NCBI GenBank assembly: GCA_021772055.1
Contig: JAETNR010000018.1
Location: 1 to 64,000 of the forward strand
Reading direction: 5' to 3'
Source of the DNA: Blautia sp.
Lineage (GTDB): Bacteria; Bacillota; Clostridia; Lachnospirales; Lachnospiraceae
Length of the DNA stretch: 64,000 bases
The notes beneath the pieces are model-generated. The model was not told where the DNA came from. It searched no databases and saw nothing but the letters and a program-made list of their open reading frames with translations. The translations under genes were made by a program, and so were the position numbers. Below, in pieces: positions 36,860 through 52,526 of the stretch. The first letter of the stretch is position 1. Each line of letters starts with the position of its first letter.

Positions 36860-36898
36860 AATACTTTCCTCCCTAAAAAACTAGATTTATCGAAAAAT

Positions 36899-36924
36899 GC
36901 GGAGGACTGATTTTCGTCCTCCGC
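36899..36924 (-). terminator. Leader terminator upstream of amt
   Basis: GCGGAGGAC pairs perfectly with GTCCTCCGC over an 8-nt loop. On the minus strand it is followed by ATTTTT, 40 nt before the amt start. Its 5' arm overlaps the hexaloop hairpin at 36920-36935, so the two cannot form together. Confidence 0.75.
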
Positions 36925-36935
36925 ATCTTTGCGAA
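36920..36935 (-). promoter_or_regulatory. ANTAR-type hexaloop hairpin, amt leader
   Basis: Minus strand: TTCGC-AAAGAT-GCGGA, a 5-bp stem (one U-G) closing on C-G, with A at loop position 1 and G at position 4. It shares five bases with the leader terminator. Confidence 0.6.
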
Positions 36936-36986
36936 CTGAATGGGTTACTATCCGCACTGTGCTGTGAACAGTACGTATATGTAAAA

Positions 36987-37070
36987 CAGGGGATACCCGT
37001 ATCGTGTGATTAATGGATGAGGAAATCGATAATGAATTATGAAGTGGATGTTCATAACTGATATCCCCTG
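36987..37070 (-). repeat. Inverted-repeat region between glnN and amt
   Basis: CAGGGGATA (36987-36995) is the reverse complement of TATCCCCTG (37062-37070). Inside lies a second stem, TTATGAA/TTCATAA near 37038-37058. Together they could fold into an 84-nt branched structure in the 260-bp gap. It may be part of the amt control region or the glnN 3' end; I found no clear promoter for amt. Confidence 0.45.
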
Positions 37071-37119
37071 ATTTTACCTTATAAAATTGTTTGATGGCTG
37101 CGTCGGCAGTCATGATCAT

Positions 37120-39219
37120 TTAGATCGAGAACAGAAGTCTGCCGTAGGTAGGATACGGAAGGACACTTTCAGGAAGCATTGCTTCTGCCTCGTCAGCAGA
37201 TTTCCGAAGGGTTTCCATATCCGTCAGCACGGTGGATTCGTATGCTTTTGCACTGGCGAGGATATCCTCACAGCTTTCCGCTTTGGCAGTATCTGCCTTT
37301 AAGGCGGTAAGTCCGGTAGCCATGGCTTCGGAAAGCCCGGTAAGTTTGGTCAGGACAGAAGTTTCCAGGGAAACGGAAATGTCCGGAACTACGGATTTTT
37401 TCAGGCTTGCGGTACGTGCAACCTGTTCCATGTAAGCTGTGATGCTGGGAAGAAGATCCTTCTGAATGATCTCCGCCATGGTATTGGACTCAATATGCAG
37501 GGTCTTTACATAGTTCTCAAGCTTGATCTCATAACGGGAATAAAGCTCGCCTTTTGTAAAGATGTTATGCTCTGTAAGCAGCGCTTCGTTCTTCGGACTG
37601 ATGAACATTTCGAGGGCTTCCGGGGTGGCTTTCAGATTGTAAAGTCCGCGCTTCTTTGCCTCTTCTATCCATTCTTCCGTGTATCCGTTTCCGTTGAAGA
37701 TGATGCGTTTATGGGCCGTGATGGTTTCTTTCAAAAGGTTATGAACCGCATGGTCCATTTCATCCGAAGGAACATCCTTCAGCTTATCGGCAAACTGGCG
37801 CAGAACCTCTGCAACAGCCGTGTTCAGGATGATGTTCGGATTGGCTACGGAAGAAGAGGAACCCAGCATACGGAATTCAAATTTATTTCCTGTAAATGCA
37901 AAGGGAGAAGTCCGGTTTCTGTCCGTATTGTCCTTTACAAAGTGAGGAAGGACCTTAGCTCCGATATCCATCTGGATGACGCCGTGACCTGCGAAGAATT
38001 CGTCCTTCTCAATGGATTGCAGAACTTCGGTCAGTTCATCTCCAAGGAAGATGGATACGATTGCAGGGGGTGCTTCATTTGCACCAAGCCTGTGGTCATT
38101 TCCTGCACTTGCAACAGAGATACGCAGAAGGTCTGCGTAATCATCCACAGCCTTGATGACGGCTACCAGAAATACCAGGAACTGGATGTTTTCTGCAGGA
38201 GTTTTGCCCGGATCCAGAAGGTTCACACCAGTATCGGTACTCATGGACCAGTTGTTGTGCTTGCCGCTTCCGTTGATGCCCTCAAATGGTTTTTCATGAA
38301 GGAGGCAGACCATTCCATGTTTGTCTGCTACTTTTTTCATGATTTCCATGGTGAGCTGATTATGGTCAACTGCAACATTGGTGGTATCAAAAACAGGTGC
38401 AAGCTCGTGCTGGGCAGGTGCAACCTCGTTATGTTTCGTTTTGGCCGGAATCCCCAGCTTCCAGAGCTCTTCATCCAGGTCATGCATATAAGCGGCAACT
38501 CTTGGATTCAGTGTTCCGAAATAGTGATCTTCCATTTCCTGGCCTTTGGGAGCAGGAGCACCGATCAGAGTGCGTCCGCAGAAAATCAGGTCTTTTCTCT
38601 GGTCATACAGTTCTTTGTCAACCAGGAAGTATTCCTGCTCCGGGCCTACTGTGGTAGTGATATGCCGTACCTCTGTGTTGCCCAGAATGCGGAGCAGTTT
38701 CAGTGCTTCCACATTTAATGCATCCATGGAGCGGAGAAGAGGTGTTTTCTTATCCAGAGCTTCACCGCTGTAGGAACAGAATGCGGTTGGAATATAAAGG
38801 GTACGATCTTTAATGAAGGCCGGGGAGGTAGGATCCCATGCGGTATATCCTCTTGCTTCGAAAGTAGCGCGAAGTCCTCCTGACGGGAAACTGGATGCAT
38901 CCGGTTCCCCTTTTATAAGCTCCTTGCCGGAGAAGTCCATGATCACCTGGCCGTCGTTGGTGGGGGAAATGAAGCTGTCATGCTTTTCCGCAGTGAAATT
39001 GGTCATCGGCTGGAACCAGTGGGTATAGTGGGTGGCACCGTTTTCGATTGCCCATTCTTTCATGGCGACTGCTACGGAATTGGCAACATCCAGTTCCAGG
39101 TGGGAGCCGTTTTGAATGGTTTTCTTCAGTGCTTTGTACATGTCTTTTGGTAATTTGGTACGCATGATCTTGTCGTTGAAAACAAGGCTGCCGTATAATT
39201 CAGGAATATTTTGTGACAT
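37120..39219 (-). CDS. glnN: Type III glutamine synthetase
   Basis: 699 residues, the length of the large GSIII enzymes of anaerobes. Recognisable segments include SSFPSGGLRATFEARGYTAW, TVGPEQEYFLVDKELY, NEVAPAQHELAPVFDTTNVA and GSGKHNNWSMSTD (metal and substrate residues). It converts glutamate, ammonia and ATP to glutamine as a dodecamer. It is a separate unit from the downstream amt gene (260-bp gap), but both leaders carry the same regulatory hairpin type. The start at 39219 follows AAAGGAGC. A second, GSI-type synthetase is encoded at 50510. Confidence 0.94.
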   Translation of the reverse strand: MSQNIPELYGSLVFNDKIMRTKLPKDMYKALKKTIQNGSHLELDVANSVAVAMKEWAIENGATHYTHWFQPMTNFTAEKHDSFISPTNDGQVIMDFSGKELIKGEPDASSFPSGGLRATFEARGYTAWDPTSPAFIKDRTLYIPTAFCSYSGEALDKKTPLLRSMDALNVEALKLLRILGNTEVRHITTTVGPEQEYFLVDKELYDQRKDLIFCGRTLIGAPAPKGQEMEDHYFGTLNPRVAAYMHDLDEELWKLGIPAKTKHNEVAPAQHELAPVFDTTNVAVDHNQLTMEIMKKVADKHGMVCLLHEKPFEGINGSGKHNNWSMSTDTGVNLLDPGKTPAENIQFLVFLVAVIKAVDDYADLLRISVASAGNDHRLGANEAPPAIVSIFLGDELTEVLQSIEKDEFFAGHGVIQMDIGAKVLPHFVKDNTDRNRTSPFAFTGNKFEFRMLGSSSSVANPNIILNTAVAEVLRQFADKLKDVPSDEMDHAVHNLLKETITAHKRIIFNGNGYTEEWIEEAKKRGLYNLKATPEALEMFISPKNEALLTEHNIFTKGELYSRYEIKLENYVKTLHIESNTMAEIIQKDLLPSITAYMEQVARTASLKKSVVPDISVSLETSVLTKLTGLSEAMATGLTALKADTAKAESCEDILASAKAYESTVLTDMETLRKSADEAEAMLPESVLPYPTYGRLLFSI

Positions 39220-39250
39220 ATGGGTATGCTCCTTTCTTTGCTAACAGAAA

Positions 39251-39281
39251 AAGGCGCCTTGGATATGCTCCAAAGCGCCTT
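39251..39281 (-). terminator. Leader terminator upstream of glnN
   Basis: On the minus strand, AAGGCGCTTTGGA pairs with TCCAAGGCGCCTT over a 5-nt loop (one mismatch), followed by TTTCTG. It lies about 30 nt before the start codon and shares its 5' arm with the hexaloop hairpin. Confidence 0.8.
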
Positions 39282-39286
39282 TGCTT
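39273..39286 (-). promoter_or_regulatory. ANTAR-type hexaloop hairpin, glnN leader
   Basis: Minus strand: AAGC-AAAGGC-GCTT. The loop is identical to those in the pyrG and aspS leaders. It overlaps the terminator's 5' arm over 39273-39281, so it could act as antiterminator. Confidence 0.65.
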
Positions 39287-39295
39287 ATGTGTGGT

Positions 39296-39323
39296 AGTAT
39301 ACACGAAAAATTGGAAATGTCAA
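39296..39323 (-). promoter_or_regulatory. Promoter of glnN
   Basis: Minus strand: TTGACA (39323-39318), 16-nt spacer, TATACT (39301-39296). Transcription should begin about 5 nt before the hexaloop hairpin. Confidence 0.8.
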
Positions 39324-39370
39324 TGGGGTTTTGGAAAAAAATTGTGGGAGGGGGACGCCGCCCCCCCCAT

Positions 39371-39602
39371 GCAGCCCGTCCGGGAGAAGGGGAAAGGGAG
39401 TGATGGGGCTGCGGTTTCGGAGCCGTAAGAAACAGTAAGTTTGCCGGGTTTCTGCTAAATGCGTTCCAAAAAATTGTGAACTCGCTTCGCTCAGACAGCA
39501 CAATTTTTTTGAACAACGCAGAAATCCGGCAAACGAACTGTTTCTAAGGCTCCTGCAAATGCAGCCCCATCACTCCCTTTCCCCTTCTCCCGGACGGGCT
39601 GC
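39371..39602. repeat. Large 232-nt inverted repeat with 42-bp perfect outer arms
   Basis: Bases 39371-39412 are the exact reverse complement of 39561-39602. Between them the pairing resumes repeatedly (GGAGCC/GGCTCC, AGAAACAGT/ACTGTTTCT, GTTTGCCGG/CCGGCAAAC, TTTCTGC/GCAGAAA, GTTC and an A-rich/T-rich arm) down to an apical CGCTTCGCTC. The whole piece could fold as one long hairpin or extrude as a cruciform. There is no supportable reading frame. Flanks are G/C-rich on the left and repetitive GGGAAGTGG on the right (39640-39650). It lies just upstream of the glnN promoter. Confidence 0.85.
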
Positions 39603-39796
39603 ACGGGGCTTCGGCTACGCCTGGTGAACTGGGAAGTGGGAAGTGGTGAAATGGGAAAGAAATAACAAAAAAAGAAATAATAAAAAATAGTATTTGATTT
39701 TGTGGTATTAAAAAGACTTGAACTATGAAAAGCCTTGAAAATACTGACTTCCTTGTTGATTAAGACACTCAAAACAGCAATGATTTTTACCGCTTT

Positions 39797-39813
39797 GGTG
39801 CTCAAATGGTGCC
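39797..39813 (+). repeat. Direct repeat, copy 1
   Basis: GGTGCTCAAATGGTGCC; 16 of 17 bases match the copy at 40814-40830. It could be a relic attachment site bounding the segment that carries the small gene at 40111. Confidence 0.5.
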
Positions 39814-39873
39814 TGGATTTCCTATGGTGATATAAAACGACACGGGCAGATATAAGAAAACCATACTATGCGA

Positions 39874-39900
39874 GGGCGAAAGCACTCGATGCTTTCGCCC
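39874..39900. repeat. Perfect 11-bp stem-loop in the accessory patch
   Basis: GGGCGAAAGCA-CTCGA-TGCTTTCGCCC. It lies in a non-coding stretch (39800-40070) with no open frame I can support. A second short stem GGCGGGCGAAGCCCG lies near 39940-39956. Such structures are common near the ends of integrative elements. Confidence 0.45.
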
Positions 39901-40110
39901 CCTTGGCTACCATGTAAGCAGGGGCAGACGCACTTGTCAATGGCGGGCGAAGCCCGTTTATCTCGACCGTTGATGAGGGCGGCTGGCTTTGCCACTTGTA
40001 CAAATGCAGGAAAATGGTAGAAAAATTAATATGTGTGTGTTAAACTACAGACATTATAAAACCAGAATTTATTGAGCAGATTATTTATATTAACGTTGGA
40101 GGTTATTAAT

Positions 40111-40446
40111 ATGCAAAAATGGTGTACTGAAGATTGGCAATTTGAATTAACAGCAATAGAGGGAAAAGCAGGACATTGTCGGCTTGGATTGGAAAAAGGA
40201 GATAAATTTATCTTTTCATATGAATGTCCTGCTGGAATGTGTCCCAAAACAATGATACAAGTATACACATGGTGTGAAGTTATCCGATGTGGTGGTGATT
40301 TTACATATAGAGGCGAAAAAGAAAAATATGAAATGAATATACCATGCGCTGATGGATGTATACAATTTCATCTTAAAGCGACTCCTATTAACCGAGATAA
40401 AAATGGAAAACCACTGCCAAATGGTCCCAGACCAAAAGATGAGTAA
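40111..40446 (+). CDS. TIGR04076-like small cysteine-containing protein
   Basis: 111 residues from the ATG at 40111 after GGAGG. The order of features (GHCRLGLEKGDKFIF, YECPAGMCPKTM, a GG-containing turn, then IPCADGCIQFHLKATP) fits what I recall of the uncharacterised TIGR04076 family, which has conserved Cys and Gly positions. Five or six cysteines could bind metal; no signal peptide. Its base composition is more A-rich than its neighbours, and it sits alone between two direct repeats, suggesting acquisition. Function unknown. Confidence 0.65.
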   Translation: MQKWCTEDWQFELTAIEGKAGHCRLGLEKGDKFIFSYECPAGMCPKTMIQVYTWCEVIRCGGDFTYRGEKEKYEMNIPCADGCIQFHLKATPINRDKNGKPLPNGPRPKDE

Positions 40447-40980
40447 CTTCCAATTATGAATATAATCCTTATCTAGATAAAATCCAATATACACAAGGGG
40501 TTGGGATTTTCCCAAAAAGCAAAAATATCTCTGCTTGTCACAGACGGGAAAGAGTGATTTTTACAGAAAGGGTACCCCTTTCCTATGCTTGCTACGGAAC
40601 TTTTTACAAAGGAACGGAAAGGATAATCTAAACAGATAGCTACTTACTTTGAAATATTACGCAGTTAAAGGGCATTTTTAAGGGAAAAGATAAAAACCTT
40701 ACCCTATTAGTTTTAGTGCCTGTAATGCCTTTTGGCAAGGATTATTGAGCCTCTAATGCGTACCTTTGTGCGTAATAACACTGCTCTATGCTTGTGTGTA
40801 TCGTTTTATTCGTGGTGCTAAAATGGTGCCCAACTTTACAAAATCAACTTATACGGCGATATGAGAGGATACAAGCAAGAACGGGAAAATCATTGAAAAT
40901 ACAGAATTTTTCCTTACTTCTATAAACACTTGTAAGAAGTTATAAGACGATTTTCGTCTATATAATCAATAAAAAATAAG
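40447..40980. other. Non-coding accessory stretch
   Basis: I see no convincing gene here. The A/T-rich sequence looks like debris from an integrated element. It includes the second direct-repeat copy at 40814-40830, after which normal operon DNA resumes with the purF promoter. Confidence 0.4.
40814..40830 (+). repeat. Direct repeat, copy 2
   Basis: GGTGCTAAAATGGTGCC; one mismatch to 39797-39813. A GATATGAGAGG-type sequence follows within about 30 nt, comparable with GATATAAAACG after copy 1. Confidence 0.5.
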
Positions 40981-40982
40981 GG

Positions 40983-41010
40983 TTGACAAATTTTTGGGGG
41001 GAATTATAAT
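40983..41010 (+). promoter_or_regulatory. Promoter of purF
   Basis: TTGACA (40983-40988), 16-nt spacer containing a run of six G, TATAAT (41005-41010). No guanine riboswitch or hexaloop hairpin is evident in the 70-nt leader. Confidence 0.8.
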
Positions 41011-41080
41011 GCAAAAAGTGTAATGACGTTTAAAGAGTGTTAAATGGGACTTGAAAAATATCAGGATGGAGGTTGGTTTG

Positions 41081-42463: not shown

Positions 42464-42473
42464 AAATAAGATA

Positions 42474-42502
42474 TTTACAAACGAAAAAAAATAGGTTATA
42501 GT
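42474..42502 (+). promoter_or_regulatory. Promoter of the pyrG-gltB-gltD operon
   Basis: TTTACA (42474-42479), 17-nt spacer, TATAGT (42497-42502), starting 11 nt after the purF stop. Confidence 0.7.
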
Positions 42503-42534
42503 AATGCACATATTTAAAAAACAGTAGAACAGAC

Positions 42535-42550
42535 CTGACAAAGGCGTCAG
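42535..42550 (+). promoter_or_regulatory. ANTAR-type hexaloop hairpin, pyrG leader
   Basis: CTGAC-AAAGGC-GTCAG, a perfect 5-bp stem. Its loop and 3' arm lie within the 5' arm of the terminator at 42540-42599. Confidence 0.65.
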
Positions 42551-42599
42551 AAACAGAATGGGATGATGCAGCCCCTTTTCTGTTTCCGGCGTCTTTTTT
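42540..42599 (+). terminator. Leader terminator upstream of pyrG
   Basis: A 17-nt arm (42540-42556) pairs with 42580-42596 with one mismatch and two G-U pairs, ending in a run of T. It lies 30 nt before the pyrG start, so it must be overcome for expression. Confidence 0.85.
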
Positions 42600-42629
42600 A
42601 TTTCACGGTGATAGAGGAGGAAATCACAG

Positions 42630-44288
42630 ATGGCAGTAAAATATGTGTTTGTCACAGGCGGAGTGGTATCCGGACTTGGAAAGGGCATTACTGCAGCATC
42701 CCTTGGAAGACTGCTGAAGGCCAGAGGATATCAGGTAACTATGCAGAAGTTCGACCCGTATATTAATATCGACCCCGGGACCATGAATCCCATTCAGCAT
42801 GGGGAAGTATTTGTGACAGATGACGGAACAGAGACAGACCTGGACCTTGGACATTATGAGCGGTTCATTAATGAATCCCTGGATAAAAATTCCAATGTGA
42901 CTACAGGAAAGATTTACTGGTCTGTTCTCCAGAAGGAGCGCAGGGGAGATTTCGGCGGAGGGACAGTGCAGGTGATCCCCCATATCACCAATGAGATCAA
43001 AAGCAGATTTTACAGAGGAAAAAACCCGGAAGAAGAAAGAATCGCAATCATCGAAGTGGGAGGAACCGTAGGAGATATTGAAAGCCAGCCCTTTCTGGAA
43101 TCCATCCGGCAGTTTCAGCATGAGGTGGGGCGGGAGAATGCGGTACTGATTCATGTAACGCTGATTCCTTACCTGAAAGCATCCGGAGAGATGAAAACGA
43201 AGCCCACCCAGGCCAGTGTGAAGGAACTGCAGGGAATGGGCATCCAGCCGGATATTCTGGTGTGCAGAAGCGAGTATCCCCTCACAGAAGAGATCAAAGA
43301 AAAAATTGCCCTGTTCTGTAATGTTCCGGTGAGTCATGTATTACAGAACCTGGACGTAGAATATTTGTATGAGGCTCCTCTGGCTATGGAGAAAGAAAAG
43401 CTGGCGGATGTTGTCCTTAAGAGCCTTCATCTGGAAAACAGGGAGCCGGATCTGAGAGCCTGGGAAGCCATGGTCAGCAGCCTGAGACATCCAAAGGGAA
43501 CGGTAAAAATTGCGATGGTTGGAAAATATACCCAGCTCCATGATGCGTATTTAAGCGTTGTGGAAGCGCTGAAGCATGGAGGAATCGCATGCAGGGTAAA
43601 ACCGGAAATCCTATGGGTGGACTCGGAGGAACTGAATGGAAAGAATCTGGACCGGAGCCTTCATGATGCGGATGGAATCCTGGTTCCGGGCGGATTCGGA
43701 AACAGAGGCACGGAAGGGATGATCCTTGCAGCCTGGTATGCAAGAACCCACAGGATCCCTTATCTTGGCATTTGCCTTGGAATGCAGATGGCAATCGTGG
43801 AGTATGCCCGCCATGTTCTGGGATATGAGAATGCTAACAGCATCGAGCTGGATCGGGAGACACCGTATCCGGTCATTGCCCTGATGCCGGATCAGGAAAG
43901 CGTGGAGAATCTGGGAGGAACGCTGCGGCTTGGCAGTTACCCCTGCGTTCTTGCAGAGGACACGGTATCCATTGGACTTTTTGGCAAAAAAGAAATTGAG
44001 GAACGGCACAGACATCGTTATGAAGTAAATAATGCTTACAGGGCAGAGCTGGCGGAAAAGGGCATGATCATTGCCGGAACCTCCCCGGATGGCCGTATCG
44101 TAGAAATGATCGAGATAAAAAAACATCCGTTTTTTGTGGGAACCCAGGGGCATCCGGAATTTAAATCCCGACCGGACCAGGCACATCCTTTATTTGAGGG
44201 ATTTGTGCGTGCCGCATTAAATGATGCAAATACAAAAATCAGTCATGATTCAGCCGGTTCTGCAGGAAAATCTGCAGAGCTTCCGTGA
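42630..44288 (+). CDS. pyrG: CTP synthase
   Basis: 552 residues after GAGGAGG. The synthetase domain opens [20 protein letters not shown] and has [20 protein letters not shown]. The glutaminase domain (about 290-540) has its Cys nucleophile in [21 protein letters not shown] and the His/Glu pair in [12 protein letters not shown]. It aminates UTP using glutamine. It leads an operon with glutamate synthase, 45 nt ahead of gltB with no terminator between. The unusual pairing implies control by nitrogen or glutamine status. Confidence 0.97.
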
Positions 44289-44333
44289 TTCAGGACTGTT
44301 CCTATAGAATAACAGAGAGAAAGGATGAGGAGT

Positions 44334-47300
44334 ATGAGAGAAGCGAGAAAGGAAGAACCGGGGCTGTATCGCCGACAATTTGAACATGACAACTGCGGGA
44401 TCGGGGCAGTAGTCAACATCAAGGGAAAGAAAACCCATGATACAGTGGCCGATGCTCTGAAAATTGTGGAGAATCTGGAGCATAGGGCAGGAAAAGATGC
44501 AGAAGGAAAGACAGGGGACGGCGTAGGAATTTTGCTGCAGATCTCCCACAGGTTTTTCAAAAAGGCATGTAAAAAAGAGGGAATTGAAATCGGACAGGAG
44601 AGGGAATACGGGATAGCACAGTTCTTTTTTCCGCAGCATGAGATCAAACGCGCCCAGGCAAAGAAAATGTTTGAAATCATTATCCGGAAGGAGGGGCTGA
44701 AGCTTCTGGGCTGGAGAATGGTTCCTGTAATTCCAGAAGTGCTGGGACATAAGGCAAAGGAATGTATGCCCTGTATTATGCAGGCATTCATTGAGAAGCC
44801 ACAGGATGTGGAAGCAGGACTTCCCTTTGACAGAATGCTGTATATTGCCCGCAGGGAGTTTGAACAGAGTAATGACAATACCTATGTGGTTTCCATGAGC
44901 AGCAGGACGATCGTTTATAAGGGAATGTTCCTTGTGGGCCAGCTTCGTACATTTTTTCCGGATCTGCAAAGCCCTGATTATGAATCCGCCATTGCCATGG
45001 TGCATTCACGGTTCAGCACCAATACCAATCCAAGCTGGGAAAGGGCTCATCCCAACCGTTTTATGGTACATAACGGAGAAATCAATACGATCCGCGGCAA
45101 TGCGGACAAAATGTTGGCGAGGGAAGAAAACATGGAATCTCCCTACCTGAAAGGGGAACTGCACAAAATTCTTCCGGTAGTCAACCGTTCCGGTTCGGAC
45201 TCTGCCATGTTGGATAACACCCTGGAATTTCTGGTAATGAGCGGTATGGAACTGCCTCTTGCCGTGATGATCACCATTCCGGAGCCATGGGCAAATAATG
45301 ATACCATTTCCCAGGAGAAGAGAGATTTTTACCAGTATTATGCAACCATGATGGAACCCTGGGACGGTCCGGCTTCCATTCTGTTTTCGGATGGAGATGT
45401 GATGGGTGCGGTACTTGACAGGAATGGACTTCGTCCGTCAAGATATTATGTTACCTCTGACGGCTATGTGATCCTTTCCTCTGAAGTAGGGGTAATGCCG
45501 GTTCCGGAAGAGAAGATCATACTGAAAGAGCGCCTGCATCCCGGAAAGATGCTTCTGGTGGATACTATTCAGGGGAGGATCATTGATGACAATGAATTAA
45601 AAGAAACCTATGCCAGAATGCATCCCTACGGAGAATGGCTGAACAGTCATCTTGTTCAGTTAAAAGATATTAAAATACCGAACCAGAGAGTGGAGGAATA
45701 TACGGAGGAGCAGAGGGCGCGTCTGCAGAAGGCATTTGGATATACCTATGAGCAGTACCGTACTTCCATCCGGAACATGGCTCTGAACGGCAGTGAAAGC
45801 ATTGGAGCCATGGGCGTGGATACCCCTCTGGCTGTTTTGTCAAAAGAACACCGCCCTCTGTTTGATTACTTTAAACAGATTTTTGCTCAGGTTACCAATC
45901 CTCCCATTGATTCCATCCGTGAGGAAATCGTGACATCCACAACAGTTTATGTGGGGAAGGATGGAAATCTTCTGGTGCAGCAGCCGGAAAACTGCCAGGT
46001 GCTTAAAATCGCCCATCCGATCCTGACCAATACGGATATGCTGAAGATCAAGACCCTGAAACAGGAAGGCTTCCAGGCAGCGGTCGTTTCTACGCTTTAT
46101 TATAAAAGCACAAAGCTTGAGCGTGCCATCGACAGGCTGTTTGTGGAGGTAGATAAAGCCTTTCGGGAAGGGGCAAATATTCTGGTGCTTTCTGACAGAG
46201 GCGTAGATGAAAACCATATGCCCATCCCGTCCCTTCTGGCAGTATCTGCGGTACACCAGCACCTTGTAAAAACAAAAAAGAGCACCTCTCTGGCCATTAT
46301 CGTGGAGTCCGGTGAGCCCAGAGAAGTGCACCATTTTGCCACCCTCCTGGGATACGGGGCAAGTGCGGTCAATCCTTACCTTGCGCAGGAAACCATCCGG
46401 GAGCTGATTGATAATCATATGCTGGATAAGGATTATTATGCCGCTGTGGATGATTACAATTACGCAGTTTTAAACGGTATTGTAAAAATTGCTTCGAAAA
46501 TGGGAATTTCTACGCTGCAGTCCTATCAGGGTGCGCAGATTTTTGAAGCCATTGGTATTTCCGGAGAAGTAATTGACAAATATTTTACCGGTACGGTCAG
46601 TCGTGTGGGCGGTATTACGCTGGAAGATATTGAGGACAATGTGGAGAAGCTTCATTCAGAAGCATTTGATCCCCTGGGGCTGACCACGGATCTGACTTTG
46701 GACAGTGTGGGAGCCCATAAGATGAGAAGCCAGGGGGAGGATCACCGGTATAATCCAAAAACCATCCATCTTCTGCAGCAGTCAACCAAATGCGGCGACT
46801 ACCAGATGTTTAAGGAATATACGTCTCTGGTGAATCAGGAGAGCCACGGGAACTTAAGAGGACTGATGGAATTTAAATATGCGGATACCCCCCTTCCCCT
46901 GGAAGAAGTAGAGAGCGTGGAGGAAATCGTGAAACGCTTTAAAACAGGTGCCATGTCTTACGGCTCGATTTCCAAGGAGGCTCATGAGACACTGGCTATA
47001 GCCATGAATCGTCTCCACGGAAAGTCCAATACAGGAGAGGGGGGAGAGAGCGACGAACGGATTGATTCTGCAGGCTCCGAAGATGACCGCTGTTCTGCAA
47101 TCAAACAGGTTGCCAGCGGACGGTTCGGTGTTACCAGCAGGTATCTTGTTTCCGCAAAAGAAATACAGATTAAAATGGCCCAGGGCGCAAAACCGGGAGA
47201 AGGAGGGCATCTTCCTGCAAAAAAAGTGTATCCCTGGATTGCAAAAACACGTCACTCTACACCGGGTGTCAGCCTGATTTCTCCGCCGCCGCATCACGAT

Positions 47301-48881
47301 ATTTATTCTATTGAGGATTTGGCACAATTGATCTACGATCTGAAAAATGCCAACAAATATGCGGATATTTCCGTAAAACTGGTTTCGGAGGCAGGTGTGG
47401 GTACAGTAGCAGCAGGCGTTGCAAAAGCCGGCGCCCAGACAATCCTGATTTCCGGTTATGACGGAGGTACAGGCGCTGCGCCCAGAAGTTCCATTCACAA
47501 TGCAGGCCTTCCCTGGGAGCTTGGACTTGCGGAAACCCATCAGACCCTTCTGCGGAACGGGCTGAGAAACCGGGTGCGGATTGAGACGGACGGCAAGCTG
47601 ATGAGCGGGCGTGATGTAGCCATCGCTGCGCTTTTAGGGGCAGAGGAATTTGGTTTTGCCACAGGCCCCCTTGTGACCATGGGCTGTGTGATGATGCGCG
47701 TCTGCAATCTGGATACCTGCCCGGTAGGGGTAGCTACCCAGAATCCGGAACTTCGCAAGAGATTCCGGGGCAAACCGGAATATGTGGAAAAATTTATGCG
47801 GTTTATCGCACAGGAGCTGCGGGAATATATGGCTCGTCTGGGAGTCCGCACTCTGGATGAAATGGTGGGAAGGACCGATCTTCTGGTTCCAAAAGAAAAC
47901 GTGGAGGAACCCCATAAGGGAAAGGTGGATTTGAGTTCGATCCTGTACAATCCGTATGCAGGAAGTAAGGAAAAGGTTACCTTTGACCCGAAAGCAGAAT
48001 ATAATTTTGAACTGGAGAAAACCTTAGATGAAAAGGTTCTGCTGAAAAAGTGCGCAGCATCCATTTCTTCAGGCGAACCGGTGGAGATCAACGTAGAAGT
48101 AACGAACACGGACCGTGCATTTGGTACGATCCTGGGCGCAGAGATTACCAGGCAGAAGAAAGACGGGCTTGCAGAAGATACGATCGTGGTCAACTGTACT
48201 GGGGCAGGAGGACAGAGCTTTGGTGCATTTATTCCCAAAGGACTGACCTTGAATCTTACCGGTGACAGCAATGACTACTTTGGCAAGGGACTTTCCGGCG
48301 GGAAGCTGATCGTGAAGGTTCCGGAGAAAGCTGCCTATAAAGCAGAAGAAAATATCATCATAGGAAACGTGGCTCTTTACGGCGCTACAAGCGGAACTGC
48401 ATTTATCAACGGTGTTGCGGGAGAACGGTTTGCAGTTCGCAACTCCGGTGCCTGTGCGGTTGTGGAGGGTGTTGGAGAGCACGGATGTGAATATATGACA
48501 GGTGGCCGCGTAGTGGTTCTCGGGAAAACAGGCAAAAACTTTGCGGCAGGTATGAGCGGCGGGATTGCTTACGTTCTGGATATGCACAGCGAGCTTTATA
48601 AAAATATCAACAAAGCGATGATTTCCATTGAAAAAGTGGAGAATAAATATGATAAGAAGGAACTGTATGATCTGATCGAGGCCCATGTGAAGGCAACCGG
48701 CTCCAGCCTTGGTGCCGGGATTCTGGCGGATTTTGAATCCTATCTGCCTTATTTTAAGAAACTGATTCCTGGTGAATATAAGAGAATGCTCACTCTCAGC
48801 GCAAAACTTGAGGAAAAGGGGCTTACAGGCGAACAAGCACAGATGGAAGCATTCTATGAAAGTATTGGTGTGAAACATTAA
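44334..48881 (+). CDS. gltB: Glutamate synthase large subunit
   Basis: 1515 residues from the ATG at 44334, about 9 nt after AAAGG (an ATG at 44325 would sit on the ribosome site). A 20-residue propeptide precedes Cys21 in HDNCGIGAVV, the glutaminase nucleophile. The FMN domain shows KPGEGGHLPAKKVYPWIAKT and SGYDGGTGAAPRSSIHNAG; the 3Fe-4S cluster cysteines lie in MGCVMMRVCNLDTCPVG; the C-terminal GXGXG beta-helix follows (GERFAVRNSGACAVVEGVG). It makes glutamate from glutamine and 2-oxoglutarate with GltD. Confidence 0.96.
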   Translation: MREARKEEPGLYRRQFEHDNCGIGAVVNIKGKKTHDTVADALKIVENLEHRAGKDAEGKTGDGVGILLQISHRFFKKACKKEGIEIGQEREYGIAQFFFPQHEIKRAQAKKMFEIIIRKEGLKLLGWRMVPVIPEVLGHKAKECMPCIMQAFIEKPQDVEAGLPFDRMLYIARREFEQSNDNTYVVSMSSRTIVYKGMFLVGQLRTFFPDLQSPDYESAIAMVHSRFSTNTNPSWERAHPNRFMVHNGEINTIRGNADKMLAREENMESPYLKGELHKILPVVNRSGSDSAMLDNTLEFLVMSGMELPLAVMITIPEPWANNDTISQEKRDFYQYYATMMEPWDGPASILFSDGDVMGAVLDRNGLRPSRYYVTSDGYVILSSEVGVMPVPEEKIILKERLHPGKMLLVDTIQGRIIDDNELKETYARMHPYGEWLNSHLVQLKDIKIPNQRVEEYTEEQRARLQKAFGYTYEQYRTSIRNMALNGSESIGAMGVDTPLAVLSKEHRPLFDYFKQIFAQVTNPPIDSIREEIVTSTTVYVGKDGNLLVQQPENCQVLKIAHPILTNTDMLKIKTLKQEGFQAAVVSTLYYKSTKLERAIDRLFVEVDKAFREGANILVLSDRGVDENHMPIPSLLAVSAVHQHLVKTKKSTSLAIIVESGEPREVHHFATLLGYGASAVNPYLAQETIRELIDNHMLDKDYYAAVDDYNYAVLNGIVKIASKMGISTLQSYQGAQIFEAIGISGEVIDKYFTGTVSRVGGITLEDIEDNVEKLHSEAFDPLGLTTDLTLDSVGAHKMRSQGEDHRYNPKTIHLLQQSTKCGDYQMFKEYTSLVNQESHGNLRGLMEFKYADTPLPLEEVESVEEIVKRFKTGAMSYGSISKEAHETLAIAMNRLHGKSNTGEGGESDERIDSAGSEDDRCSAIKQVASGRFGVTSRYLVSAKEIQIKMAQGAKPGEGGHLPAKKVYPWIAKTRHSTPGVSLISPPPHHDIYSIEDLAQLIYDLKNANKYADISVKLVSEAGVGTVAAGVAKAGAQTILISGYDGGTGAAPRSSIHNAGLPWELGLAETHQTLLRNGLRNRVRIETDGKLMSGRDVAIAALLGAEEFGFATGPLVTMGCVMMRVCNLDTCPVGVATQNPELRKRFRGKPEYVEKFMRFIAQELREYMARLGVRTLDEMVGRTDLLVPKENVEEPHKGKVDLSSILYNPYAGSKEKVTFDPKAEYNFELEKTLDEKVLLKKCAASISSGEPVEINVEVTNTDRAFGTILGAEITRQKKDGLAEDTIVVNCTGAGGQSFGAFIPKGLTLNLTGDSNDYFGKGLSGGKLIVKVPEKAAYKAEENIIIGNVALYGATSGTAFINGVAGERFAVRNSGACAVVEGVGEHGCEYMTGGRVVVLGKTGKNFAAGMSGGIAYVLDMHSELYKNINKAMISIEKVENKYDKKELYDLIEAHVKATGSSLGAGILADFESYLPYFKKLIPGEYKRMLTLSAKLEEKGLTGEQAQMEAFYESIGVKH

Positions 48882-48895
48882 GGGAGGAAAAATAC

Positions 48896-50380
48896 ATGGG
48901 AAAACCAACAGGCTTTTTGGAGTATCATAGAGAAACGGCGAAGGTGCTGCCGCCTAAGGTTCGGATTTCCAATTTTCATGAGTTCCGGATTCCGCTGAAT
49001 AAAGAAAAGCAAATGTTACAGGGAGCACGCTGTATGGCCTGCGGCGTCCCTTTTTGCCAGTCCGGTGCTATGATTGCAGGAATGGCTTCCGGATGTCCCC
49101 TTCATAATCTGGTTCCGGAAACAAATGACCTGGTATATACAGGCAACTGGAAACAGGCATATAATCGTCTCAGCAAGACCCACAGCTTTCCGGAATTTAC
49201 CTCAAGGGTCTGCCCCGCTCTCTGTGAGGCTGCCTGTACCTGCAATCTGAACGGAGAGCCGGTGGCAACCAAGGAAAATGAGAGGGCAATCATAGAAACA
49301 GCTTTTGAAGAGGGCTGGGTGATGCCCAAGAAACCCAAGGTACGTACAGGAAAGACCATTGCTGTTGTGGGAAGCGGACCAGCTGGGCTTGCCGCAGCGC
49401 AGCAGCTGAACAGAAGAGGCCATCAGGTGACTGTTTATGAGAGAAGTGACAGGATCGGCGGCCTTCTCCGTTATGGGATCCCTAATATGAAACTGGAAAA
49501 ATGGGTGATTGACAGACGGGTTTATCTTATGGAAGAAGAAGGGGTGACATTTGTTACCAATACCAATATTGGGGTGGATATTTCCGCAAAAGAGCTTCAG
49601 AAAAAATTTGACAGGGTGGTTCTTGCCTGCGGAGCTTCCAATCCAAGGGATATCAAAGTTCCGGGAAGAGAAGCGAAGGGAATATACTTTGCCGTGGACT
49701 TCTTAAAGAAGGTAACGAAATCCCTTCTGGACAGTGATTTTGGAAAGGTCCCTTATGAACTTGCCAGAGGAAAGCATGTCCTGGTTATCGGCGGCGGAGA
49801 TACGGGGAACGACTGTGTAGGAACTGCTATCCGCCTGGGAGCAAAATCCGTGAAACAACTGGAGATGATGCCTAAACCGCCGGTGGAAAGGATGGAGAGC
49901 AATCCATGGCCTCAGTGGCCGAAAGTGCTGAAAACGGATTATGGCCAGGAAGAGGCCATTGCCGTATTTGGCAGTGATCCCAGAATCTATCAGACCACCG
50001 TAACAGAATTTATTCCTGATAAAAAAGGAAATGTATGCAAAGCAAAGATCGTGAAGCTGGCAGGCCAAAAGGATGAAAAGACAGGCAGAATGGTGATGGT
50101 TCCTCTGGAAGGAACAGAGGAAGTGATCCCTGTGGACCTGGTGCTGATTGCAGCCGGATTTCTGGGAAGCGAAAAATATGTGACAGAGGCTTTTGGCGTG
50201 GCTGTAAATACCCGCACCAATGTGGACACAAAGCCGGACTGCTATGATACTTCCGTTCCTGGGGTATTTACTGCAGGAGATATGCACAGAGGCCAGTCTC
50301 TGGTGGTATGGGCGATCCGGGAAGGCAGAGAGGCTGCAAAGATGGTCGATGAATCTTTGATGGGATACACAAACCTTTAA
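48896..50380 (+). CDS. gltD: Glutamate synthase small subunit
   Basis: 494 residues after GGGAGG, 14 nt after gltB. N-terminal cysteines for two 4Fe-4S clusters are in ARCMACGVPFCQSG and RVCPALCEAACTCNLNG. The FAD site is IAVVGSGPAGLAAAQQL, the NAD(P)H site VLVIGGGDTGNDCVG, and the C-terminal FAD motif is VPGVFTAGDMHRGQSLVVWA. It passes electrons from NAD(P)H to GltB. Confidence 0.96.
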   Translation: MGKPTGFLEYHRETAKVLPPKVRISNFHEFRIPLNKEKQMLQGARCMACGVPFCQSGAMIAGMASGCPLHNLVPETNDLVYTGNWKQAYNRLSKTHSFPEFTSRVCPALCEAACTCNLNGEPVATKENERAIIETAFEEGWVMPKKPKVRTGKTIAVVGSGPAGLAAAQQLNRRGHQVTVYERSDRIGGLLRYGIPNMKLEKWVIDRRVYLMEEEGVTFVTNTNIGVDISAKELQKKFDRVVLACGASNPRDIKVPGREAKGIYFAVDFLKKVTKSLLDSDFGKVPYELARGKHVLVIGGGDTGNDCVGTAIRLGAKSVKQLEMMPKPPVERMESNPWPQWPKVLKTDYGQEEAIAVFGSDPRIYQTTVTEFIPDKKGNVCKAKIVKLAGQKDEKTGRMVMVPLEGTEEVIPVDLVLIAAGFLGSEKYVTEAFGVAVNTRTNVDTKPDCYDTSVPGVFTAGDMHRGQSLVVWAIREGREAAKMVDESLMGYTNL

Positions 50381-50389
50381 AAAAGGTAG

Positions 50390-50418
50390 TTGACAAAGAG
50401 GGATGCGATTGTTATAAT
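50390..50418 (+). promoter_or_regulatory. Strong promoter of glnA
   Basis: TTGACA (50390-50395), exactly 17 nt, TATAAT (50413-50418): consensus boxes. The start point should be near 50425, placing the hexaloop hairpin at the very 5' end of the RNA. Confidence 0.9.
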
Positions 50419-50426
50419 ACGTGCAT

Positions 50427-50440
50427 GAACAAGGGCGTTC
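50427..50440 (+). promoter_or_regulatory. ANTAR-type hexaloop hairpin, glnA leader
   Basis: GAAC-AAGGGC-GTTC: 4-bp stem closing on C-G, A1 and G4 in the loop. Its loop overlaps the terminator's 5' arm (50431-50437). Confidence 0.6.
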
Positions 50441-50481
50441 TTTTGATGGGGAAACCAGTCAGAAGTGCGCCCTTTATTTGA
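50431..50481 (+). terminator. Leader terminator upstream of glnA
   Basis: AAGGGCG (50431-50437) pairs with CGCCCTT (50468-50474), with an inner stem (CTTTTGA / GTCAGAAG-type pairing) and TTTATTTGATTT following. It lies about 30 nt before the glnA start. Confidence 0.7.
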
Positions 50482-50509
50482 TTTGATTGAATGATAAGGA
50501 GAGAATAGA

Positions 50510-51832
50510 ATGGGGAATTATACCAGAGAGGAAGTCCTGCAGATGGCTGAAGAGGAGGATGTGGAATTTATCCGCCTTCAGTTTACTGATATGTTTGGTG
50601 CTTTGAAAAATATTGCGATCACTTCGCGGGAACTTCCCCGGGTGCTTAGGGATGGGTATATTATTGACGGAAGTTCTATTGCCGGAGTAGCAGAGGAAAC
50701 AGAGCCTGATCTGTATTTGTATCCGGATCCGAATACATTTACTATTCTGCCGTGGAGACCCCAGCAGGGAAAGGTGGCGCGGCTTTTGTGCGATCTGTAC
50801 AAAGCAGATGGAACAGCCTGTACAAACAGCGCCAGATATATCCTGAAAAGAATTTCTAAAAAAGCAGAAGCAGAGGGTTATATCTGTTTTATTGACCCGG
50901 AATGTGAGTTTTTCCTGTTTCATTCGGATGACAATGGCATGCCGACTACATTGACCCATGAGAAAGCAGGATATCTTGACATGAGTCCCCTGGATCTTGG
51001 GGAAAATGCAAGAAGGGATATGGTGCTGAATCTGGAAGATATGGGAATTGAAGTAGAGTCCTCCCATCATGAGATTGCACCTGCACAGCATGAGATTGTC
51101 TTTAAGAACGGGGAAGTAAATGAAATGGCTGACCGTATTATGACCTTTAAAATGGCTGTGCGTACCATTGCCAAGCGCCACGGACTTCATGCCACCTTTA
51201 TGCCGAAGCCAAGAACCGATGTGGATGGTTCCGGTATGCACATCAGCTTTTCTGTTTTTAAAGACGGAGAAAATATTTTTGAGTGCCAGAAGGAACCAAA
51301 AGGGCTCAGTGATGAGGCGTATTACTTTATAGGAGGCCTTCTTGCACACAGCAGAGAGATGGCACTGGTCACCAATCCTCTGGTAAATTCCTATAAACGT
51401 CTGGTGCCGGGATATAAGGCGCCTACGGAGCTGACCTGGACCAGGAATAATCAGAACTCTCTGGTAAGGATTCCGGTTGCCAGAAAAGGAAATACGAAGA
51501 TCGAACTGAGAAGTCCGGATGCAGCATCCAATCCATACCTGGTATTTGCAGTTTGTCTTGCAGCGGGGCTGGATGGAATTCATAAGAAGATTTTCCCTAC
51601 GGAAGCTTCTGACCGTTCGGAAAGAGGTTCTTCTGAACAGTCACAGCCGGTGGAGAATCTTCCGGAAAATCTGAAAGAAGCCATTGAACTTTTTGAAGGA
51701 AGTTCCTGGATAAAAGATGTTCTGGGAAAAGCTTTCTGTGAGAAATATGCAGCTTCCAAGAAAAGGGAATGGCTGAAGTATACAAGACAGGTAACAGACT
51801 GGGAAATAGAAAATTATCTTTATCGTATCTAA
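50510..51832 (+). CDS. glnA: Glutamine synthetase type I
   Basis: 440 residues after AAGGAG. Key segments: IIDGSSIAGVAEETEPDLYL (N-terminal latch), FIDPECEFFLF, SSHHEIAPAQHEIVF and GSGMHISFSVF (metal and ATP), and NSYKRLVPGYKAPTELTW (substrate). The short length and the lack of an obvious adenylylation-type insertion suggest the GSI-alpha class. It duplicates the reaction of glnN at 37120. It is followed at 46 nt by an ANTAR regulator, an arrangement I recall from other clostridia. Confidence 0.96.
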   Translation: MGNYTREEVLQMAEEEDVEFIRLQFTDMFGALKNIAITSRELPRVLRDGYIIDGSSIAGVAEETEPDLYLYPDPNTFTILPWRPQQGKVARLLCDLYKADGTACTNSARYILKRISKKAEAEGYICFIDPECEFFLFHSDDNGMPTTLTHEKAGYLDMSPLDLGENARRDMVLNLEDMGIEVESSHHEIAPAQHEIVFKNGEVNEMADRIMTFKMAVRTIAKRHGLHATFMPKPRTDVDGSGMHISFSVFKDGENIFECQKEPKGLSDEAYYFIGGLLAHSREMALVTNPLVNSYKRLVPGYKAPTELTWTRNNQNSLVRIPVARKGNTKIELRSPDAASNPYLVFAVCLAAGLDGIHKKIFPTEASDRSERGSSEQSQPVENLPENLKEAIELFEGSSWIKDVLGKAFCEKYAASKKREWLKYTRQVTDWEIENYLYRI

Positions 51833-51877
51833 AGTTCTAAGGTTTGTCGGAAATAGAAAAATGAGGAGTCGTATTGT

Positions 51878-52432
51878 ATGAGTGGCAGCATCGTAATCGC
51901 TTTACCGAAAATTGAAGATGCAAAAAAGATCCGTACGATATTGGTAAGACACGGATTTTCAGTAGCTGCAGTATGCAATACGGCTTCCCATGCACTTTCC
52001 AGTATCTCCGAGCTGGAGAGCGGCGTCCTGATCTGTGGTTACCGCCTGCCGGATATGTATTACCACAATCTGAAGGAATGCCTGCCGGAAGGTTTTGAAA
52101 TGCTTCTTCTTGCGTCTGCAAGAATCATCCAGGAGGTTCCTGCATCCGTGCTTACTGTGGAACTGCCCATGAAGGCAGGAGACTTTTTAAACACTGTAAA
52201 TATGGTTCTGGCTCAGATTGAACGCCGCAGCAGAAAAGATAAGAAAAAGCCAAAGCCCCGCACATGGAAGGAACAGAATTATATTTCCAATGCGAAGATG
52301 CTGCTGATGCAGCGGAACCACCTCAGTGAGGAAGAAGCATATCGCTATATCCAGAAGTGCAGTATGGACTCCGGCACGAATATGGTGGAAACGGCGCAGA
52401 TGCTTTTGATGCTGTTTTATGATGAACTTTAA
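51878..52432 (+). CDS. ANTAR-domain antiterminator with degenerate receiver (NasT/AmiR-like)
   Basis: 184 residues. Residues 1-115 have a receiver fold, but the phosphoacceptor position is Gly54 (LICGYRLPDM) and the N-terminal acidic pair is missing (IVIALPKIEDA), so phosphorylation is unlikely. A basic linker (RRSRKDKKKPKPR) leads to the C-terminal ANTAR domain: AKMLLMQRNHLSEEEAYRYI then MVETAQMLLMLF. ANTAR proteins bind paired hexaloop hairpins in leader RNAs and prevent termination. It is co-directional with glnA, and five matching hairpins lie in this window. What it senses is unknown. Confidence 0.9.
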   Translation: MSGSIVIALPKIEDAKKIRTILVRHGFSVAAVCNTASHALSSISELESGVLICGYRLPDMYYHNLKECLPEGFEMLLLASARIIQEVPASVLTVELPMKAGDFLNTVNMVLAQIERRSRKDKKKPKPRTWKEQNYISNAKMLLMQRNHLSEEEAYRYIQKCSMDSGTNMVETAQMLLMLFYDEL

Positions 52433-52453
52433 CAGAAATGAAATATTGAATTC

Positions 52454-52473
52454 TGATCACAAAGGCGTGATCA
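52454..52473 (+). promoter_or_regulatory. ANTAR-type hexaloop hairpin, aspS-gatCAB leader
   Basis: TGATCAC-AAAGGC-GTGATCA: perfect 7-bp stem, starting 22 nt after the ANTAR gene stop and 9 nt before the terminator at 52482. It is the best-formed of the five. Confidence 0.65.
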
Positions 52474-52481
52474 AAATATCC

Positions 52482-52526
52482 AATCCTGGCATACTACGGG
52501 TGATTACGGGTATGCCGGGATTTTTT
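52482..52526 (+). terminator. Terminator between ANTAR gene and aspS
   Basis: AATCCTGGCATAC (52482 on) pairs with GTATGCCGGGATT (one G-T pair), followed by a T-run to 52526. It lies 45 nt before the aspS start, so readthrough or antitermination is needed for aspS-gatCAB to be expressed from glnA. Confidence 0.85.

Follow-up and report, generated by a model that had tools for sequence, protein, structure and literature searches.

We analysed a 64,000-nucleotide (nt) stretch of the Blautia sp. assembly GCA_021772055.1 (contig JAETNR010000018.1, positions 1 to 64,000; hereafter the window) that carries genes for ammonium uptake (amt), two glutamine synthetases (glnN and glnA), CTP synthase and glutamate synthase (pyrG-gltB-gltD) and aspartyl-tRNA synthetase (aspS), together with a gene for an ANTAR protein. 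The leaders of these genes likely belong to a nitrogen antitermination regulon, in which a NitR-type pseudo-receiver ANTAR protein uses a single hairpin with a six-nucleotide loop (hexaloop) per leader. A sequence-only reading of the window had placed all five leaders under this one protein, a proposal that fits the conserved, covarying sites and the lone ANTAR protein but holds less well at aspS, where hairpin and terminator are compatible, and at amt, where no promoter was found. ANTAR control of nitrogen genes is already known, and what appears to be new here is the one-hexaloop layout of the leaders.

Five leaders with one hexaloop each

A script recovered all five of the hexaloops proposed earlier, each with A at loop position 1 and G at position 4 (A1/G4) and closed by a C-G pair, in the leaders of amt, glnN, pyrG, glnA and aspS. 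At the first four sites, as had also been proposed, the hexaloop shares bases with an intrinsic terminator: the loop and the 3′ stem strand are part of the terminator's 5′ arm, and folding shows the terminator to be the more stable structure, with minimum free energies of −28.9, −23.5, −27.8 and −27.1 kcal/mol (amt, glnN, pyrG and glnA) versus −5.0, −2.5, −6.4 and −2.8 kcal/mol for the hexaloop alone. Such overlap is found at 4 of the 5 window sites and fails at aspS, where the hairpin does lie ahead of a separate terminator, at a distance of 8 nt rather than the 9 nt first given. The features are listed here by position, with the hexaloop hairpins placed by script scan.

35120..36859 (−): amt, ammonium transporter with a P-II domain fused at the C terminus (PF00909 1.3e-119, PF00543 1.6e-22)
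36890..36930, limits approximate (−): amt leader terminator, including the hexaloop's loop and 3′ strand
36920..36935 (−): amt leader hexaloop hairpin UUCGC-AAAGAU-GCGGA, first loop base 36930
37120..39219 (−): glnN, type III glutamine synthetase (PF12437, PF18318, PF00120)
39250..39282 (−): glnN leader terminator, including the hexaloop's loop and 3′ strand
39273..39286 (−): glnN leader hexaloop hairpin AAGC-AAAGGC-GCUU, first loop base 39282
39296..39323 (−): glnN promoter TTGACA-16-TATACT, 9 nt from the −10 element to the start of the hexaloop stem
42474..42502 (+): pyrG promoter TTTACA-17-TATAGT, 32 nt from the −10 element to the stem start
42535..42550 (+): pyrG leader hexaloop hairpin CUGAC-AAAGGC-GUCAG, first loop base 42540
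42540..42596, limits approximate (+): pyrG leader terminator, including the hexaloop's loop and 3′ strand
42630..50380 (+): pyrG-gltB-gltD, CTP synthase and glutamate synthase subunits (pyrG by Pfam; gltB and gltD named from sequence), open reading frames 42630-44288, 44325-48881 and 48896-50380
50390..50418 (+): glnA promoter TTGACA-17-TATAAT, 8 nt from the −10 element to the hexaloop stem start
50427..50440 (+): glnA leader hexaloop hairpin GAAC-AAGGGC-GUUC, first loop base 50431
50431..50474 (+): glnA leader terminator AAGGGCG...CGCCCUU, then a U-rich tract (folding and pattern match)
50510..51832 (+): glnA, type I glutamine synthetase (PF00120, PF03951)
51878..52432 (+): NitR-like pseudo-receiver and ANTAR protein, presumed antiterminator (PF03861 1.3e-15; fold nearest EutV)
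52454..52473 (+): aspS leader hexaloop hairpin UGAUCAC-AAAGGC-GUGAUCA, first loop base 52461
52482..52522 (+): aspS leader terminator, clear of the hexaloop
52572..57174 (+): aspS-(gatC)-gatA-gatB, aspartyl-tRNA synthetase and tRNA amidotransferase (aspS by Pfam, its start placed by the ribosome-binding site; gatA and gatB named from sequence; gatC assumed in the gap)

The pyrG, gltB and gltD genes probably form one operon, judging from their spacing and from two relatives (L051 and L054) with a site directly before gltB, and only in that case does the pyrG-leader site bear on gltBD. Since amt follows glnN on its strand after a 260-nt gap and no promoter was found before the amt site, this site may be an internal attenuator. 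Scanning the entire window with Rfam gave no family (riboswitch, T-box or glutamine motifs) at gathering score. Just upstream of the glnN promoter lies a 91-nt inverted repeat (arms 39365-39455 and 39518-39608, 86% complementary, 62-nt spacer), perhaps the remnant of a small mobile element.

Both strands of the window were scanned for C-G-closed A..G.. hexaloops with a stem of at least 4 base pairs (bp) and terminator overlap. Five were found, the four leader sites and a weak one at 10429, whereas twenty dinucleotide shuffles in 2-kb blocks gave a mean of 1.05 (maximum 3), or 0.30 (maximum 2) for AA.G.. loops. The weak hexaloop at 10429 (+), AAAC-AACGGG-GUUU with a terminator-like hairpin in coding-looking surroundings, is probably a chance occurrence.

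Conservation and covariation in relatives

Among 200 genomes of the family Lachnospiraceae, 172, including that of the window, contain a match to the window ANTAR protein at E 0.001 or better, weak matches included. We analysed 80 named loci, each taken with flanks of up to 10 kb; those with an organism name are from Blautia and other Lachnospiraceae. Directly ahead of the ANTAR gene, on its strand, all 80 have a match to glnA. At class level, 20 of the matches were taken, two of them from Lachnospiraceae; glnA adjoins ANTAR in 19 of these regions (16 by search, three from match positions), and 7 of the 20 have a glnA-leader site. A second, divergent group of pseudo-receiver ANTAR proteins in Lachnospiraceae is accompanied in 19 of 19 regions (L217, L219-L236) by a glnA of 37-42% identity, in genomes without a strong match to the window protein, and these regions hold 14 hexaloop-terminator sites, none with a second hexaloop.

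Sites in leaders were called by a rule requiring a C-G closing pair, an AANG[AG][CTA] loop, a stem of at least 4 bp and a terminator overlapping or 5-12 nt off; gene matches that start past residue 40 or lack sufficient sequence upstream were left out of these counts and of the second-hexaloop counts below. In the 80 loci, sites with a terminator precede glnA in 50 of 79 cases, pyrG in 18 of 25, gltB in 2 of 26 (both, L051 and L054, loci without a pyrG match) and aspS in only 6 of 30, which limits the regulon reading; small samples gave 2/3 for glnN, 0/1 for amt and 1/3 for purF. The same rule found nothing before the control genes (ANTAR 0/80, gatA 0/35, gatB 0/33, gltD 0/33). Separate searches in other genomes, each counting the window's own site, detected sites in 27 of 30 glnN leaders and 10 of 29 amt leaders (one partial amt locus omitted), and the amt sites of relatives L152 and L153 have the loops AAAGGC and AAAGAC. 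The glnA leaders that failed the rule were inspected apart from L054: ten of these 28 lie within 105 nt after gltD or pyrG, and in five of the ten (L051, L058, L066, L082, L100) a site heads the gene group. Among the matches listed for a gene-blind loop-plus-terminator pattern, 16 of 30 loci precede nitrogen genes (glnN 4, amt 3, glnA 3, gltB 2, pyrG 2, P-II 1, asnB 1), one of them the window's glnN; seven of the 16 were named via Pfam and nine by eye from sequence. This pattern also stands ahead of circularly permuted ATP-grasp-like gene starts in L254 (Pfam) and L263 (by eye).

The hairpins had been expected to covary in related genomes, and they do, with stems that change in matched pairs between genes and between genomes (GAAC/GUUC, CUGAC/GUCAG, UUUGAC/GUCAAA, AAGC/GCUU, GAUCAC/GUGAUC, GAUUAC/GUAAUC, GGCUGC/GCAGCC). 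The pair score was 0.727 versus 0.234 shuffled, for 42 distinct 18-mers in rows selected for having a stem. With the octamer CAANG[AG][CT]G, which does not select for a stem, all four next pairs form in 58 of 95 leader cases versus 5 of 232 coding cases (glnA 33/62, pyrG 15/17, gltB 3/3, aspS 7/13). A larger set comprises 121 terminator-overlapping sites, two in the window itself and the rest from relatives, class-level ones among them, which amount to 114 distinct 36-mers. It was selected for A1, A2, G4 and the C-G closing pair; G5 is present in 114 and C6 in 110 of the 121, neither being a selection criterion.

A covariance model of the kind suggested by the sequence-only reading ranked aspS (first, E 0.13), pyrG and glnA at the top of a whole-genome search, with E values of only 0.13-0.39, and the amt and glnN sites were not returned; 150 of 1095 candidates were scored, and the model was partly built from the three sites that it then ranked highest. 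The remaining six matches, outside the window, all fall within open frames of at least 305 codons; L119, one of the six, has a terminator-like hairpin at a distance of 7 nt. We rejected the 18-nt model as a genome-wide finder, as too short for specificity. No regulon members were found elsewhere in the genome by the covariance model or the pattern, both of which are insensitive, the pattern fitting only the glnN and glnA leaders in the window. The second type III glutamine synthetase gene of the genome (L277, contig 69; 55% identical) has a leader without a hexaloop.

The aspS site

At aspS, the 7-bp hexaloop hairpin and the terminator are compatible and both form in one fold. Because the hexaloop does not compete with its terminator, at this site only it may instead close the glnA-ANTAR message as a decoy or autoregulatory binding site rather than serve as an antiterminator, a reading that we take seriously without preferring it. 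Consistent with a decoy, a scan found hairpin and terminator 9-11 nt apart in the aspS leaders of five relatives, and a sequestering ANTAR RNA, EutX/Rli55, has been described (PMC8934654). The hexaloop upstream of aspS in L049 and L082 likewise lies away from ANTAR at the end of a dapL-like gene, whose stop codon it spans; by eye, an Ile-codon difference (ATC/ATT) between the two goes with the stop difference (TGA/TAA). Two relatives nevertheless indicate that aspS can be a genuine target: inspection by eye shows the hexaloop sequence before aspS in L046 to be capable of pairing into the terminator, and the gene group aspS-gatA-gatB-glnA-ANTAR of L111 has an overlapping hexaloop of the glnA type at its head. 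The steadiness of the hairpin-terminator gap also suggests a mechanical role. Near relatives L032 and L036 have aspS 24 nt and 25 nt after ANTAR, where it would be co-read with glnA-ANTAR, and in the window lineage a terminator and hexaloop separate the two genes. Neither a second hairpin in aspS leaders nor pairing of a hexaloop arm with the terminator loop proved to be conserved when sought by eye, and both ideas were dropped.

One hairpin or two

The sequence-only reading had raised as a caveat that only one clear hexaloop was visible per leader where the canonical target has two, and this caveat has become a positive result, carried by the counts, the positive control and the promoter spacing. 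A script scan found no second hexaloop in the five window leaders, and 2 of the 121 sites have another A1/G4 hexaloop in the 25 nt upstream, versus 4.5 expected from shuffles. Since the Lachnospiraceae eut region L218 gave no canonical pair by the scan rules, class-level EutV regions were used as the positive control: in ten of these, 4 of 13 terminator-overlapping hexaloops have a first hairpin, and a direct pair search added one pair. The pairs come from 4 of the 10 regions (L237 twice, L239, L242 and L243), with linkers of 3-11 nt where given.

Sigma-A-like promoters were recognised at 56 of 57 glnA sites (7.4 when shuffled) and at 27 of 30 glnN sites (5.5 when shuffled), with the −10 element ending 5-12 nt before the stem in 51 of the former and 7-10 nt before it in 26 of the latter. 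Spacing this short would leave no upstream transcript for a second hairpin, and the glnA and glnN transcripts are predicted to start at about the hairpin. The leaders of L145, L173 and L174 contain a tandem of two separate units, each a hexaloop with a terminator to itself, as if one hexaloop and one terminator made up the working unit.

We consider it very unlikely that a dual motif is hidden here, whose first hairpin would be non-canonical in its loop or situated further upstream, making the system an ordinary two-hairpin one. Such a motif could draw on the upstream A1/G4 hexaloops at two sites, though these are not above chance, on the 13 of 16 promoter-bearing pyrG sites with at least 16 nt from −10 element to hairpin, space for something small, and on the scan's recognising A1/G4 hexaloops only; yet the same scan does detect pairs near EutV genes, and at 51 of 57 glnA and 26 of 30 glnN sites the predicted promoter leaves nothing upstream to fold. 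We recognised no description of one-hexaloop antitermination leaders in the open-access literature, subscription papers lying outside the search.

The ANTAR protein and what reads the hairpin

The protein at 51878-52432, which had been called an ANTAR protein from its sequence, is a real one by its match to PF03861 (57.3 bits versus a curated cut-off of 27.3), and NCBIfam gave no match. A search of the draft genome (4.64 Mb in 192 contigs; completeness 99.7, contamination 5.6) found no other ANTAR. The AlphaFold2 model (mean predicted local distance difference test score 91) comprises a receiver-like part and an ANTAR helical bundle, and its nearest PDB structures, by fold and by sequence, are of EutV (6ww6 and 6wsh), including EutV with RNA. 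The hexaloop-contacting residues Tyr164 and Met172 of EutV (PMC8934654) align to Y155, which is Y, H or F in relatives, and to the invariant M163, taking an inferred numbering offset of 2 between the EutV chain and that paper; R142, K143 and K147 of EutV align with Q133, N134 and N138, and those contacts are not preserved. The predicted structure retains the receiver-like fold though the phospho-acceptor Asp is gone: by eye it is absent in the window protein (GVLICGYR) and 17 relatives, and EutV-type proteins have DLVLMD or close to it. This loss argues against kinase input. Ahead of the ANTAR bundle lies a basic stretch, with a mean net charge of +6.4 in 80 relatives and +2.6 in 19 proteins of the second group versus +0.2 in nine EutV-type proteins, for segments chosen roughly (9 of 11 EutV-type open reading frames yielded a usable one), and our guess is that it stands in for the first hairpin. 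The NitR label rests on a review's description (PMC6316151) and the place beside glnA.

Of the 200 family genomes, 28 have no homologue; 20 of these were followed, and 17 of the 20 are without ANTAR by the Pfam model. A glnN-leader site was found in 1 of 16 ANTAR-less cases (L195) versus 27 of 30 in the relatives searched, and the gene-blind pattern in 3 of the 17 genomes versus 122 of the 183 others. No glnA was found in the 17 at E 1e-60, a threshold at which a divergent GlnA could be missed. In L195, from a genome with no ANTAR detected (G062), two adjacent hexaloops about 160 and 135 nt before glnN come with an overlapping terminator and resemble the canonical dual motif.

A further reading, which we also consider very unlikely, is that, though real and conserved, the hairpin serves a different factor, for example an RNA-binding protein that acts on RNA stability or otherwise, and that the ANTAR protein beside glnA has another function. 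The tie between ANTAR protein and RNA is drawn here from sequence, G062 has its glnN-leader site nevertheless, and the 3 of 17 ANTAR-less genomes with the pattern stand at about the level of the backward control (4/17). Most tested ANTAR-less genomes are, however, without sites, published work on EutV and NasR gives the A1/G4 loop and the closing pairs as determinants of ANTAR recognition, and the nearest solved protein is EutV, which has also been solved with its hexaloop RNA.

We reject as scarcely credible the notion that AAAGGC...GCCUUU arms, common in strong terminators of these bacteria, make A1/G4 look automatic and that the short stem arises by chance, for although the loop itself belongs to the terminator arm and 14 terminators elsewhere in the 80 loci carry the same arm, a stem of at least 3 bp accompanies the AAnGG[CT] 5′ arm in 39 of 40 nitrogen-leader terminators versus 1 of 14 others (Fisher p 1.7e-10, kin sequences treated as independent), and the 5′ stem strand, outside the terminator, varies with its partner from gene to gene. 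By these sequence comparisons, the hexaloop stem is specific to nitrogen leaders.

Weighing the regulon

Several results weigh against a one-hexaloop regulon that spans all five leaders. The 2022 paper on the structure of EutV with RNA gives a single hexaloop as the minimal motif for binding, but has antitermination require contact with both (PMC8934654); two hexaloops are also given as required in PMC3369931, and the affinity of NasR for one hairpin is poor, about 12 uM (PMC7496416). Our positive control found no pair in 6 of the 10 EutV regions, nor in L218. No promoter was found upstream of the amt site in the window, amt sites in general have a recognisable promoter in 5 of 13 cases (1.1 when shuffled), and the amt hexaloop is absent in 12 near relatives (L154-L165). 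At aspS the hairpin leaves its terminator free to form. As many as 29 of 79 glnA leaders failed the site rule, and among the 28 inspected, apart from the ten that follow gltD or pyrG, four hold sub-threshold hexaloops and the others are not accounted for. The gene-blind pattern is of moderate specificity, occurring in 125 of 200 family genomes, with about 70 of 200 for the backward control (hand count). Lastly, the counts with and without ANTAR take no account of descent, and most of the 16 ANTAR-less glnN genes share only 52-57% identity with that of the window, which puts them level with the unregulated paralogue.

Proposed mechanism and relation to known systems

In the single-hexaloop regulon that we favour, the glnA and glnN messages would begin at a single C-G-closed hexaloop (C-AANGGC-G) and the pyrG message soon before it, and the sites of amt and aspS resemble attenuators placed inside glnN-amt and glnA-ANTAR-aspS units. 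The terminator would be the default fold, with which a single protein-stabilised hairpin competes. With no protein bound, the hairpin's loop and 3′ strand would become the 5′ arm of the far stronger terminator, and transcription would end short of the gene; when nitrogen is limiting, the ANTAR protein would grip the lone hexaloop, the terminator arm would be unavailable, and amt, glnN, pyrG-gltBD and glnA-ANTAR would be transcribed. Here we infer the binding of ANTAR to RNA, the readthrough that follows it, the nitrogen signal and the working of the aspS site. The constant glnA-ANTAR neighbourhood and the joint absence of the two genes make GlnA a candidate nitrogen sensor, by analogy with the Bacillus pair of glutamine synthetase and TnrA (PMC6316151). 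More tentatively still, and with considerable doubt, this could be a Clostridia-wide form in which a lone hexaloop at the 5′ end suffices, the basic stretch before ANTAR replaces the first hairpin, and GlnA as sensor gates the unphosphorylated pseudo-receiver.

Among the nearest described relatives are the EutV-controlled eut leaders of Enterococcus, Listeria and Clostridium, which share the ANTAR protein, the A1/G4 hexaloop, the C-G closing pair and the overlap of hairpin and terminator. They differ in that the EutV-region sites that we found have two hexaloops a few nt apart, whereas the nitrogen leaders here have one, and in that the window protein has neither the phospho-acceptor Asp nor the near-neutral stretch that precedes ANTAR in proteins of the EutV type. 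Another relative is NitR of Clostridium saccharobutylicum, an ANTAR protein described in a review as inducing the glutamine synthetase and glutamate synthase genes upon nitrogen limitation (PMC6316151), and a nitR antiterminator is mentioned for C. acetobutylicum (PMC4676874); the likeness lies in ANTAR induction of these genes and is drawn from the review's description. The passages on NitR in these sources mention neither a single-hexaloop layout nor glnN, amt, pyrG or aspS-gat as targets. NasR/nasF and AmiR/amiE are alike in ANTAR antitermination of nitrogen genes via hexaloop recognition, and NasR selects the C:G closing pair and A1/G4 (PMC7496416). The nasF leader differs in its two-hairpin motif, a single hairpin of which NasR binds weakly (PMC7496416), and NasR differs in sensing nitrate via a NIT domain (PMC3369936). 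The dual-hairpin regulons predicted by Ramesh 2012 (for example in Desulfotomaculum acetoxidans) also join several nitrogen operons per genome, with ammonium transporters, P-II and glutamate and glutamine synthases among the predicted members (PMC3369931), but were found with a two-hairpin model, and by their design such models would miss one-hairpin leaders.

Implications

Bioinformatics on single-hexaloop sites has been called for (PMC8934654). The more than 100 natural one-hexaloop terminators found here, many without space for a second hairpin, make the sufficiency of a single hexaloop directly testable. On this evidence, many Lachnospiraceae, a family common in the gut, would have a nitrogen regulon that takes in ammonium uptake, both kinds of glutamine synthetase, glutamate synthase and CTP synthase, and that in single relatives extends to asparagine synthase and P-II.

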